Of a stretch of DNA of 37,628 nucleotides, positions 5,187-17,200 are shown piece after piece (the stretch's first letter is position 1; each line of letters begins with the position of its first letter). This DNA is from Candidatus Arcticimaribacter sp. (lineage in GTDB: Bacteria > Bacteroidota > Bacteroidia > Flavobacteriales > Flavobacteriaceae). The translations under genes were made by a program, and so were the position numbers. The DNA is taken from contig WTJN01000009.1 of the NCBI GenBank assembly GCA_011526265.1, forward strand, positions 1 through 37,628, in the 5' to 3' direction. The notes beneath the pieces were generated by a model. It saw nothing but the letters and a program-made list of their open reading frames with translations, was not told where the DNA came from and did not search any database.

Positions 5187-5758
5187 TGATCGACCAATTA
5201 TTAAACTGGGATATACAATTGTTTTTATGGCTCAACGGGCTAGGGCAGCCGTCCTATGATTTTATCTGGTTGTTATTGAGTGAAAAAGCGACCAACGTGG
5301 TGGTCTACTTGATTTTTGTTTTTGCTTATGCCAAACGATATGGCGCGCGCGCCGCTTTTTTTCTTTTTGCTTCTGCGGCTATTTTGGTAGGGATGACAGA
5401 TCAAATCACCAACATATTCAAATACGGTTTTATGCGTTTACGCCCCTGCCATACCCCAGAATTAGACGGACTAATGCGGCTGGTGAAGGACAGTTGTGGG
5501 GGTAAATTCAGTTTTTTCTCTGGGCATTCTTCCAATTCATTTGCGCTGGCTATTTATTTCAGCTTGATGTTTGCGCGCATGAAATGGTTAAAACCTATTT
5601 TAATCCTGTTTGCCGGGTGCATTGCTTACAGTCGCGTCTATCTTGGGGTGCACTTTCCGCTGGATATTCTTTGTGGGGCCCTGGCAGGAAGTTTGTTGGG
5701 CTATACTTTCTTTAAAACGATCAATAGCTATTTCAAAAAAGTTCTTCCCACCTATTAG
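5186..5758 (+). CDS. PAP2 superfamily membrane phosphatase
   Basis: A 190-residue inner-membrane phosphatase with about five hydrophobic segments. The three-part PAP2 site is visible: KYGFMRLRP (motif 1, KxxxxxxRP), FSGH in FFSGHSSNSF (motif 2) and SRVYLGVHFPLD (motif 3, SRxxxxxHxxxD). Relatives dephosphorylate undecaprenyl diphosphate, phosphatidic acid, phosphatidylglycerol phosphate or lipid A. Sequence alone does not separate these. Translation starts at GTG, overlapping the stop of the upstream small gene by one base. The 3' end converges on msrA with a 4-base overlap. Confidence 0.9.
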   Translation: MIDQLLNWDIQLFLWLNGLGQPSYDFIWLLLSEKATNVVVYLIFVFAYAKRYGARAAFFLFASAAILVGMTDQITNIFKYGFMRLRPCHTPELDGLMRLVKDSCGGKFSFFSGHSSNSFALAIYFSLMFARMKWLKPILILFAGCIAYSRVYLGVHFPLDILCGALAGSLLGYTFFKTINSYFKKVLPTY

Positions 5759-6408
5759 TGTTGTTTTTTCAACAACTCGGGGTAGGCTTTTTGAAATTTT
5801 CTCAATCGTGGGATCGACACGCGCTGGACGTAAGGATTATCAGGATTTAATCGTTCATAATTTTGATGATACTCCTCAGCGTAGTAGAATTTTTTTAACG
5901 GTTTGACCTCGGTCACGATTTCTTTAGTAAAAATCTGTTTTTCGACCAAAAGTGCGATGTACTGTTGGATTTGCTCCCGTTCTTGGTCGTTGGAATAAAA
6001 GGCAATCGAGCGGTATTGATTCCCATAGTCGGGTCCTTGTCTATTTGGGGTAGTGGGGTCATGCGAACCAAAAAATACTTGCAGCAAAGTACCAAAGGAA
6101 ACTACCTTGGGATCATAGAGTACTTCTACCGCTTCGGCATGGCCTGTTTTACCGGTGCCTATTTGTTGATAATTGGGATTTTTTGTTTGACCTCCCGCAT
6201 AACCAGAGTAGACTTCATCCACCCCCTGGACAGATTCAAAAATCGCTTCAACACACCAAAAACATCCGCCGGCAAAATAGGCTTTTGCGAGTGCTTGTTG
6301 TTCTTTCTGTGGAGGTGTCCACACAGCCTTATCATTGTGGTAGGGCGGGGTGCTGGAAATACATGTCTGTAATGCAATGAAGCAAAATAGGGTAAGGAAG
6401 CTTTTCAT
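5755..6408 (-). CDS. msrA: Peptide methionine-S-sulfoxide reductase, exported
   Basis: A 217-residue MsrA, which repairs S-epimer methionine sulfoxide in oxidised proteins. The catalytic cysteine is in GGCFWCVEAIFE, followed by YSGYAGGQTKNPNY, GHAEAVEVLYDP and FFGSHDPTTPNRQGPDYG, all typical. About 40 residues precede the domain. They begin with a hydrophobic signal (MKSFLTLFCFIALQTC) ending in a Cys that could be a lipidation site, although LQTC is a poor lipobox. The enzyme is therefore probably periplasmic. The start codon overlaps the stop of the upstream TfoX-N gene as ATGA, so it should be last in a long operon. Confidence 0.93.
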   Translation of the reverse strand: MKSFLTLFCFIALQTCISSTPPYHNDKAVWTPPQKEQQALAKAYFAGGCFWCVEAIFESVQGVDEVYSGYAGGQTKNPNYQQIGTGKTGHAEAVEVLYDPKVVSFGTLLQVFFGSHDPTTPNRQGPDYGNQYRSIAFYSNDQEREQIQQYIALLVEKQIFTKEIVTEVKPLKKFYYAEEYHQNYERLNPDNPYVQRVSIPRLRKFQKAYPELLKKQH

Positions 6409-6769
6409 TTTTTTCTTTTTTTTGACTTTTTGGTTTTGTCATTAAACGCATGACAAAGATCGAGCCAAAATACCAAATCTTCTTCTAAGTCATATCCCTC
6501 CGGCGGGATAAAAACATAGTCTTTCATGGGTCGCCCAGTAAAGTCCATGGGATAGCATTTTCCTGCATTGATGAGTGCATTGGCTTTTTCAAATCCTACC
6601 CTCGCCATCATCAAATCTTCTTCTCTTTTTTTGTCCCAATGAAGGCTGCAAAACATTTTCTCGTTGACCATGAAGACCAATCCGCCCATCATTTCCTTTG
6701 TTTGATGAGCGATTTTTTTTGCTGCAATACTTGAGCAATCCGTTCTGCAAGAAACGTGTCGTACGCCAT
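6405..6769 (-). CDS. TfoX N-terminal domain protein, reading frame broken at an A8 run
   Basis: Two frames together encode one small TfoX-N protein of about 121 residues. ATG at 6769, directly behind the previous gene's TAA, gives MAYDTFLAERIAQVLQQKK and then leaves frame. After an A8 run (bases 6713-6720, T8 on the plus strand) the continuation IAHQTKEMMGGLVFMVNEK lies in the -1 frame and runs to 6405. The joined product has the family hallmarks: a MAYD start, MMGGLVFMVNEKM, MARVG and the PMDFTGRPMKDYVFI block. An automatic call would start at ATG 6692 and lose the first 29 residues. Causes could be a real deletion, transcript slippage, -1 ribosomal frameshifting or a sequencing error. The domain occurs at the N terminus of the competence regulator TfoX/Sxy but also alone in many bacteria with unknown role. 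Confidence 0.8.
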
Positions 6770-7177
6770 TTATTGGTGATGGTCACAATTCATCATCCAG
6801 TGAATACCAAAGCGATCGATGAGTTGTCCGAACGTGGCATTCCAAAATTGTTTTTCGAGCGGCATGGTTATTTTTCCCCCTTGGGACAATTGTTCAAAAG
6901 CGTTTTTCATGACCGAAAGATCGGAGTAGTTAATGCTCAGATGAATGTTTTGGTTTTGGCCCAGGGAAATGTCAGGGCTGTCTGCTATCATGGCCAATGT
7001 TTTGTTTTCGTGAAGAAGTTCCGCATGCATTACCCAATCTTTTTGTTCGGGTAAGTGGGGCACTGGACTGGTTCCATAGGTTTTGATTTCTCCATGGGAA
7101 AGCGACAGGGACGCACAATAGAAGTCGATCGCTTCTCGCGCTTGGCCGTTAAAAATGAAGTAAGGATGAAATAACAT
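6770..7177 (-). CDS. VOC superfamily (PhnB-like) protein
   Basis: A 135-residue glyoxalase-fold protein resembling the PhnB/3-demethylubiquinone methyltransferase-like group: an N-terminal HPYFIFNGQAREAIDFY, a central VMHAELLHENKTLAMIADS and a C-terminal NATFGQLIDRFGIHWMMN. This group has an incomplete metal site compared with true glyoxalase I. No substrate can be assigned. Its TAA stop is directly followed by the ATG of the TfoX-N gene, and an 11-base gap separates it from DUF1272 upstream. Confidence 0.88.
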   Translation of the reverse strand: MLFHPYFIFNGQAREAIDFYCASLSLSHGEIKTYGTSPVPHLPEQKDWVMHAELLHENKTLAMIADSPDISLGQNQNIHLSINYSDLSVMKNAFEQLSQGGKITMPLEKQFWNATFGQLIDRFGIHWMMNCDHHQ

Positions 7178-7188
7178 AAAATAAAATT

Positions 7189-7371
7189 TTAGGGTTGGTT
7201 ACGCTGTGGTCGTTGTTGAAAATTCCCCCCACAGTTGGGACAGCGATGCTTGAGTCTATTTTCAACACAATGTTTACAAAAAGTACATTCATACGAACAG
7301 ATGTATGCCAACGGACTGTCCAAAGACAAAGGTGTTTTACAATGTTCGCAATGGGATTTCATTTCTAACAT
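7189..7371 (-). CDS. DUF1272 zinc-ribbon-like small protein
   Basis: A 60-residue protein matching DUF1272: MLEMKSHCEHC, SYECTFCKHCVENRL and RCPNCGGNFQQRP. Eight cysteines are arranged as CxxC-type pairs and look like two zinc knuckles. The family has no established function. It starts two bases behind the PIG-L stop and ends eleven bases before the VOC gene. In many bacteria DUF1272 accompanies small VOC or stress genes, which fits this placement. Confidence 0.88.
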   Translation of the reverse strand: MLEMKSHCEHCKTPLSLDSPLAYICSYECTFCKHCVENRLKHRCPNCGGNFQQRPQRNQP

Positions 7372-14259: not shown

Positions 14260-17200
14260 TTATTTTTTTCCGATCAAGACCCAATCTCCACCTTTCAACA
14301 AGGGTTCGGCTTGTTTGAACTTTACCGTTTTGGATTCCCCATTGACTTTGTGCTTGATTTCAACCCTGTCATTGCGACCAATTTTTGGGAGTTCTCTGGT
14401 GATTGTTTCCACCGTTGCTCTTGATGCTCGACTGGCCCCTGCTCCGATTTCGCGTTGTTTGGCCGCCATCTCTTCGGTGTTTAAGACGTCGTCTTTAGAG
14501 GTCTTTAAGGCCTCTTTTCTTCGCGGTTTTTTGGCTTCTTGAATAGAATTTTCTTGGGCAGGAATACTCCCTTTGAGCAAGAAGGAAATGACTTCTCTAT
14601 TGAGGTTTTCCATCATAACTTTGAAAAGTTCAAATGCCTCGAATTTATAAATCAGTAGCGGATCTTTTTGTTCGTGTACGGCCAATTGAACCGATTGCTT
14701 TAACTCGTCCATTTTTCTTAAATGGTTTTTCCAAGCCTCGTCAATCAGGGCAAGTGTGATGTTGCGCTCAAAGTCTTCAATCAATTGTTTTCCTTGCGAT
14801 TGATATGCTTTTTCAAGGTGGGTAACCACATTCAAGGTTTTGTTGCCGTCGGTAAAAGGAACAACGATTTTTTCAAACTTGTTGCCTGGGCGCTCAAATA
14901 CATTTTTAATGACTGGGAAAGTCAATGTGGCATTGATTTCTCCTTTTTGACGGTAGTAGTCAAAAGTGGTTTGGTAAAGCTGATCGATCAGATCGGCTTC
15001 GGTCATAGCTTCAAATTTATCGCGCTGAACGGGAGAGGTAATGGAGAATGTGCTGATGATTTCAAATTCAAAGTTTTTGAAATCGTTTGTTGCTTTATTA
15101 TTGAGTACAATGGTTTCGCAGGTTTCAAAGAGCATATTGGCAATATCCACTTTGAGGCGATCCCCTTGCAGAGCGTGCATCCGTCTTTTGTAAATTACCT
15201 CGCGTTGCGCATTCATCACGTCGTCGTATTCCAACAGACGTTTTCGAATTCCAAAGTTGTTTTCTTCTACTTTTTTTTGGGCGCGTTCTATGGACTTGGT
15301 CATCATGGAATGCTGAATGACTTCGCCTTCTTCCAAGCCCATTCTATCCATTACCTTGGCAACGCGTTCGGAGCCAAAAAGGCGCATGAGGTTGTCTTCC
15401 AGTGATACGAAAAACTGAGAACTCCCTGGGTCTCCTTGTCGACCCGATCGCCCTCTCAATTGTCGGTCGACTCGTCGGGAGTCGTGGCGTTCTGTCCCAA
15501 TAATGGCTAATCCACCCGCTGCTTTTACTTGGTCTGACAGTTTAATGTCTGTTCCACGTCCGGCCATATTGGTGGCAATGGTGACCACACCCGCATTTCC
15601 TGCTTCTGCAACTATGTCTGCTTCTTTTTTGTGCAGCTTCGCATTGAGGACGTTGTGTTTCACTTTTCGAATGTTGAGCATTTTACTCAATAATTCAGAA
15701 ATCTCTACGGAAGTAGTTCCAATCAACACCGGTCGACCCGCTTGGGAGAGTTGTGTGACCTCTTCAATAACCGCGTTGTATTTTTCTCTTTTGGTTTTAT
15801 AGATCAAGTCTTCCTCGTCCTTTCGGGCAATGGGTCGATTGGTGGGTATTTCAACCACATCGAGTTCATAGATTTCCCAAAACTCTCCCGCTTCTGTAAT
15901 GGCTGTCCCTGTCATCCCAGAAAGCTTGTGGTACATACGGAAATAGTTTTGCAAAGTCACCGTCGCAAAGGTTTGTGTAGCGGCTTCGATCTTTACATTT
16001 TCTTTGGCTTCAATGGCTTGGTGTAAACCGTCCGAATAACGACGCCCTTCCATGATCCGCCCCGTTTGCTCGTCTACGATCATGACTTTGTTGTCCATAA
16101 CAACATATTCTGTATCCTTTTCAAAAAGCGCATAGGCTTTGAAAAGTTGATTCATGGTATGGATGCGTTCACTTTTGACGTTGAAATCTTTGAGAAGGAT
16201 TTCTTTTTTGGCGGCTTCTACTTCGGGTTTCAGCGCCTCATTTTCAATTTTTGCTAGGGCTGTTCCAATGTCTGGAAGAACAAAAAAGTCTTTGTCTTGA
16301 ACACTGGCCGAGAGGGTCTCTACCCCTTTATCGGTTAATTCAACGGCATTGTTTTTCTCATCAATGGTAAAGTACAATTCGGCATCAATGACATGCATTT
16401 CACGATTGTTATCCTGCATGTAAAAGTTTTCCGTTTTTTGAAGTAGTTGCTTTATACCCTCCTCGCTAAGAAATTTAATGAGCGCTTTGTTTTTGGGCAA
16501 ACCTCGATGAACGCGATACAATAATTTTCCTCCTTCATCGGTGTCCCCTTCTGCAATTTTCTTTTTGGCTCCGGCCAACACAGTGGTCAGGGTACTGCGT
16601 TGTTTGGTATACAGTTCGGAGACCTTTGGTTTCAACTGGTCAAACTCATGACGGTCTCCTTCTGGTATGGGTCCTGAAATGATGAGGGGCGTTCGCGCGT
16701 CGTCTACCAAAACAGAGTCAACTTCGTCAACAATGGCGTAGTGATGTTTGCGTTGCACCAAATCCTCTGGGGTATGCGACATGTTGTCCCGCAAATAGTC
16801 GAAACCAAATTCATTGTTTGTTCCATAGGTGATGTCAGCGAGATAGGCGTTTCTTCTGGCTGCAGAGTTGGGTTGATGCAGATCAATACAATCGACCCGT
16901 AGCCCATGAAATTCGAAAATGGGTGCCATCCATGCGCTGTCGCGCTTGGCCAAATAATCATTCACCGTGACCAAATGAACTCCCTTTCCTGTCAAGGCAT
17001 TTAAGTATACTGGGAGGGTGGCTACAAGGGTTTTTCCTTCCCCCGTTTGCATTTCAGCAATTTTTCCTTGGTGCATGGCAATGCCTCCTATTAACTGCAC
17101 GTCGTAGTGGATCATGTCCCATGTGATGGATTTGCCTGCGGCGTCCCAGCTGTTGTGCCAAACCGCTTCATCGTTGTTTAAAACGACATACGCGTGGTTT

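Follow-up and report, generated by a model that had tools for sequence, protein, structure and literature searches.

A TfoX_N gene split at an A8 run in a draft Candidatus Arcticimaribacter genome, and the repeated damage to the same gene across its genus

The TfoX_N gene and its surroundings

The window, i.e., the whole 37,628-nucleotide stretch that was analyzed (42.6% GC), belongs to a 2.07-Mb draft genome (G000; 186 contigs, 81.9% complete). It contains a compact minus-strand block in the order DUF1272, VOC, TfoX_N and msrA, within which the TfoX_N gene lies in two pieces:

7189 to 7371, minus strand: DUF1272 gene, which precedes the VOC gene and is a member of the conserved block
6770 to 7177, minus strand: gene for a VOC/glyoxalase-like protein (PF06983/PF00903), the upstream neighbor, whose TAA abuts the TfoX_N ATG
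6769 to 6405, minus strand: TfoX_N gene, both pieces
6689 to 6769, minus strand: 5' piece of TfoX_N in frame 0, comprising 26 codons and the stop TGA; the N-terminus that it encodes can be aligned to MAYDxYLAERIRQ in intact relatives
6713 to 6720, minus strand: A8 run at which the frame is lost, read as T8 on the plus strand
6689 to 6692, minus strand: ATGA overlap between the frame-0 stop (TGA 6691-6689) and the first start of the 3' piece (ATG 6692-6690)
6405 to 6692, minus strand: 3' piece of the TfoX_N gene, -1 frame, 95 amino acids, TfoX_N (PF04993)
5755 to 6408, minus strand: gene for MsrA (PF01625), the downstream neighbor, whose ATG overlaps the TfoX_N stop

The frame-0 piece runs on the minus strand from ATG 6769-6767 to TGA 6691-6689 and encodes MAYDTFLAERIAQVLQQKKSLIKQRK, and the -1 frame encodes IAHQTKEMMGGLVFMV..., ending at the stop at 6407-6405. 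The TfoX_N domain of the window copy thus has no uninterrupted reading frame, the two frames parting at the A8 run, and the sequence and its open reading frames bear out the original prediction of a gene split into two frames with a -1 offset that meet at A8. The earliest ATG, GTG or TTG in the -1 frame is ATG 6692; therefore, with the usual starts, the 3' piece must begin there. This piece scores 30.7 bits against the TfoX_N profile (PF04993; cut-off, 30.1; profile positions 14-89 of 91), a search of the whole genome with the profile gave 34.3 bits, and identity is 59-66% to the seven intact copies of the genus and 54% to the copy in genome G004.

In the intact genus copies, MAYDxYLAERIRQ is followed by 11 residues and then KKMMGG, and the distance from the start methionine to MMGG is 26 residues in 7/7, all in a single frame. 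This spacing fits the loss of one base at the run and indicates that the window pieces belong together; it is also consistent with the earlier proposal that one base restores an intact domain. The position of the split is weaker evidence than it appears, since A8 runs are commonplace in a window of 42.6% GC, which holds 14 A/T homopolymers of exactly 8 and six longer ones.

The syntenic position of the TfoX_N gene is identical in both deep branches of the genus. At the 18 genus loci that were found, MsrA is free of stops in 18/18, with at least residues 1-214 of 217 covered. An ATGA at 6405-6408 of the window joins the TfoX_N stop to the msrA start, and the same context occurs at the end of the TfoX_N gene in G005, G008, G013, G015 and G017, being absent in G014 and G018. 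Because this context recurs at the ends of several genus copies, translational coupling from TfoX_N to msrA is plausible.

State of the gene across the genus

Homologues were sought in 60 genomes, including the window's own, and a match was obtained in 23, with five Aquimarina records, a Dokdonia MAG and a Chitinophagaceae MAG among the named relatives. The genus is represented by 19 genomes, the window genome included. The gene is intact and in one frame in seven (G005, G008, G013, G014, G015, G017 and G018) and broken in four (G000, G002, G004 and G010), and the lesions differ from genome to genome: two frame breaks at or beside A9 and A8 runs, with the three pieces otherwise open, in G002 (L127 12025-12446); an in-frame TAA in G004; and two in-frame stops plus two frame breaks, one of them at an A7 run, in G010. 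Probable remnants lie in place in two further genomes, namely the last 27 residues in G003 (E 0.009) and a weak match in G006 that was judged chiefly by position (E 1.4). At five msrA loci (G001, G007, G009, G011 and G012), the locus is present and the gene was not found; a short C-terminal-like stretch is visible by eye at the locus of G007. For G016, the search yielded no msrA locus and no close match to the M28 neighbor of that locus, which makes this genome uninformative. The gene is therefore broken, reduced or not found at 11/18 genus loci, the window's included.

A tree built from the M28, MATE, PAP2-like (our label) and MsrA proteins of 18 genomes (G014 without M28, and some pieces partial) places intact copies beside broken ones in G005/G010, G018/G002/G004 and G013/G008/G003. 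If the gene was ancestral at the locus, this tree gives, by our count, at least eight separate losses, namely in G000, G010, G003, G011, G002, G004, the G009 and G012 pair, and the G001, G006 and G007 group. Some nodes are weak (support of 52 and 61), and the pairs with different lesions are independent of them. Orthologues in relatives thus carry independent lesions or are lost within a conserved locus, as expected for a pseudogene. Repeated breakage and loss, with the msrA gene behind still intact, show that the TfoX_N gene is dispensable in this genus.

No relatives of the gene were found in viral contigs, and no solved structures matched an intact relative at E 0.1. Among the matches listed for TfoX with Bacteroidetes, Flavobacteriia or pseudogene, the titles and opening lines of abstracts made no mention of the gene.

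Origin of the split

The split most probably reflects inactivation, fairly recent on an evolutionary scale, of the TfoX_N gene by a slippage indel in a dispensable gene that the genus keeps losing (we put the probability at roughly 0.7). This reading is preferred because of the repeated breakage and loss at the locus, the differing lesions, the intact msrA in 18/18 and the changes at invariant columns described below, and the comparison thus favors the recent mutation that was among the earlier suggestions, as a lineage-specific event. Replication slippage in an A-rich lysine stretch would have removed one base and broken the frame, and the 3' frame may still be open since little time would have elapsed since the break. 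Reinitiation at ATG 6692 perhaps keeps ribosomes running into msrA, which could help the 3' frame to stay open.

Evidence from substitutions points in the same direction, if mildly. The window copy has changed at 9/43 columns in which all seven intact copies of the genus agree, compared with 0-6 changes of 43-49 columns when each intact copy is tested against the rest and 3/43 in G004. The signal weakens when near outgroups are added (3/28 invariant columns changed, against 0-3 of 28-31 in the others). On a fixed tree, the G000 branch makes up 0.30 of the TfoX_N tree and 0.16 of that of the concatenated neighbors, an excess that is borderline in an equal-size bootstrap (medians of 0.30 and 0.17, overlap of about 5%). 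The ratio of TfoX_N to concatenate is 2.83 for G000, with 3.08 and 2.98 for the intact, short-branch G013 and G015. The 3' piece differs most at the third position of codons (0.45-0.53; first and second positions, 0.20-0.34), and the persistence of this excess would make the break young relative to the branch. Together, these comparisons suggest mild relaxation and a young break, short of proof. Two observations count against decay: no stop interrupts the 3' frame, which still scores above the Pfam cut-off, as would that of a rescued or misassembled intact gene, and the rate excess is only borderline, with equal ratios in the intact G013 and G015 and a signal weakened by the outgroup test.

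The strongest alternative, although an unlikely one, is that the gene is truly intact and that the draft carries an assembly or consensus error, or has collapsed a population polymorphism of the homopolymer. Homopolymers are a usual place of assembly and consensus errors, the assembly is an incomplete draft in many contigs, and it has N gaps within genes. The change at genus-invariant columns nonetheless leans toward real relaxation, and the assembly reads comparable runs correctly elsewhere: in 443.6 kb of G000 (51 stretches, frames aligned to G005 proteins by single match), 15 sense A8/A9 runs and three T8 runs within conserved frames were all read in frame, with no other-strand matches overlapping them. 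Hence, the G000 assembly does not generally misread A8/A9 runs, though a single error is possible.

Surveys of frameshifts, for which open reading frame sets were produced mechanically, gave a similar picture. A survey of HSP pairs, which is blind to short pieces and missed the TfoX_N gene itself, found none in 132 genes and, in reverse, none in 125. A sensitive survey of G000 returned six candidates in 126 conserved genes (13 contig-end cases were skipped), and none of those besides the TfoX_N gene was convincing: two were N-gap scaffolding artefacts, one an antisense open reading frame, one an acidic repeat protein (a judgement by eye) and the last an extension upstream. Run in reverse, the sensitive survey gave three candidates among 124 genes; on inspection by eye none was convincing, and one was tied to an N gap. 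A genome-wide excess of frameshifts in the window genome was accordingly not found in either survey. N runs lie inside genes at two loci of this genome (L044 and L064, on contigs C11 and C21), where the scaffolded assembly mimics frameshifts in such surveys. In 265 kb of G010, the sister of G005, there were four candidates in 79 genes, one of them convincing and away from long A runs; it lies on contig C19 (L198, near 16078-16377) in a gene conserved with G005. Frameshifts are rare in the G000 and G010 samples, and what sets the TfoX_N gene apart is that it has been damaged repeatedly.

It is appreciably less probable that slippage, either during transcription of the A run or by the ribosome (-1) on A-AAA-AAA, restores the frame in part of the products and gives a low dose of full-length protein, whether as rescue or as a programmed event. 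A slippery heptamer is present in the zero-frame phase (CAA AAA AAA TCG), and a 9-bp stem is predicted directly downstream of the run in the centroid structure. In Blochmannia and Buchnera, poly(A) frameshifts are reported to be rescued (PMC3017870), and in G002 both breaks of the same gene lie at or beside A runs (A9 and A8), the pieces being otherwise open. These breaks fit slippage rescue and, equally, replication slipping at A runs.

Comparison of the site in relatives argues against such recoding, as the slippery site is not conserved. A8 at this position was found in 0 of the 28 other copies checked. The longest run there is A7 (G053), and five of the 28 copies have A5-A7, all read in frame: G015 (A5), G038 (A5), the Dokdonia MAG (A5), Aquimarina litoralis (A6) and G053. 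All seven intact genus copies are single-frame, and the longest run among them is the A5 of G015. The site is lysine-rich in other copies as well, and several carry A7-A9 a few codons downstream, at EKKMMGG, with the frame unbroken; more widely, in-frame genes often hold sense A7-A9 runs (73 in 118 kb). The 81-nt fold is ordinary (z of -0.55, with 53/200 shuffles at least as stable), and the predicted stem is formed partly by the ATGATGG codons. Programmed frameshifting, as raised in the original prediction, is thus unsupported.

Run length and the state of the gene also weigh against recoding. Ten other genomes with broken or missing copies show that the gene can be dispensed with, and the run of eight is shorter than the nine nucleotides from which selection against A/T runs is evident in many genomes (PMC1088944). 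Insertions during transcription are described as growing exponentially with run length, to 9 nt in Escherichia coli and 11 nt in Buchnera (PMC5574713). From this relationship, some full-length product from an A8 run is possible and would be expected to be small. A broader version, in which this small-genome genus tolerates poly(A) frameshifts via RNA polymerase slippage and TfoX_N, whose breaks in G000 and G002 all lie at or beside A runs, is kept at a low dose as in insect endosymbionts, seems very improbable.

We give similarly little credence to the idea that the gene now functions as a shortened protein made from ATG 6692 by termination-reinitiation, for which the ATGA overlap at the junction and an open 3' frame that is coding-like by codon position could be cited. 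The short form would be without the conserved first 26 residues, and residues invariant in the genus are changed in it (9/43). It is correct, as noted earlier, that TGA overlaps ATG 6692 and that reinitiation could occur, but the overlap does not speak for it. Every aligned genus copy uses ATGATG for the conserved MM, where any shift of this sign from upstream runs into TGA, such that the overlap arises automatically; we therefore rejected ATGA as evidence of a reinitiation signal or of a designed junction.

Comparison with known systems

The window copy resembles pseudogenes begun by homopolymer indels in shrinking genomes, in having a single A-run indel, an open remainder of the reading frame and relatives in which the same gene is lost or eroded, whereas its host is Flavobacteriaceae-like, with a window of 42.6% GC, rather than an AT-rich endosymbiont. 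The poly(A) frameshifts of Blochmannia and Buchnera (PMC3017870) likewise break a frame that is otherwise intact. However, the run here has only eight nucleotides, the break is not common to relatives, and the gene is damaged or not found at 11/18 loci; the borderline rate excess also differs from the lack of acceleration in four Blochmannia genes tested in that article. The homopolymer frameshifts of Blochmannia described there offer a precedent both for the first step of erosion and for tolerated, corrected breaks.

The -1 programmed frameshifting of the dnaX and insertion sequence type shares the A AAA AAA heptamer in phase, but the site here is not conserved and has neither a significant stimulatory structure nor a second product with a known role. 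With TfoX/Sxy N-terminal domain proteins (PF04993), the gene shares a match above the cut-off, with MAYDxYLAERIRQ...KKMMGG in intact relatives; unlike in these, the product here would be a short, stand-alone TfoX_N protein encoded in a VOC-msrA block, and nothing in the analysis points to a role in competence.

By itself, another homopolymer indel in a dispensable gene is of slight significance. The loss of a TfoX_N gene from a conserved msrA block on at least eight occasions in a single genus (our count), with msrA persisting, makes this genus usable for asking what a stand-alone TfoX_N protein does.

Damage near the locus extends to neighboring genes in two relatives. In G003 (L125 1258-1830), erosion also affects the VOC gene that precedes msrA, which lacks its 5' part and has a frame shift, adjoining the TfoX_N remnant, so that the whole VOC-TfoX_N stretch is decaying in this genome. 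In G017 (L126 8638-9058), the match to DUF1272 is limited to residues 1-36 and that to VOC begins at residue 66, the two being separated by about 107 bases, apparently a deletion extending from the DUF1272 gene into the VOC gene.
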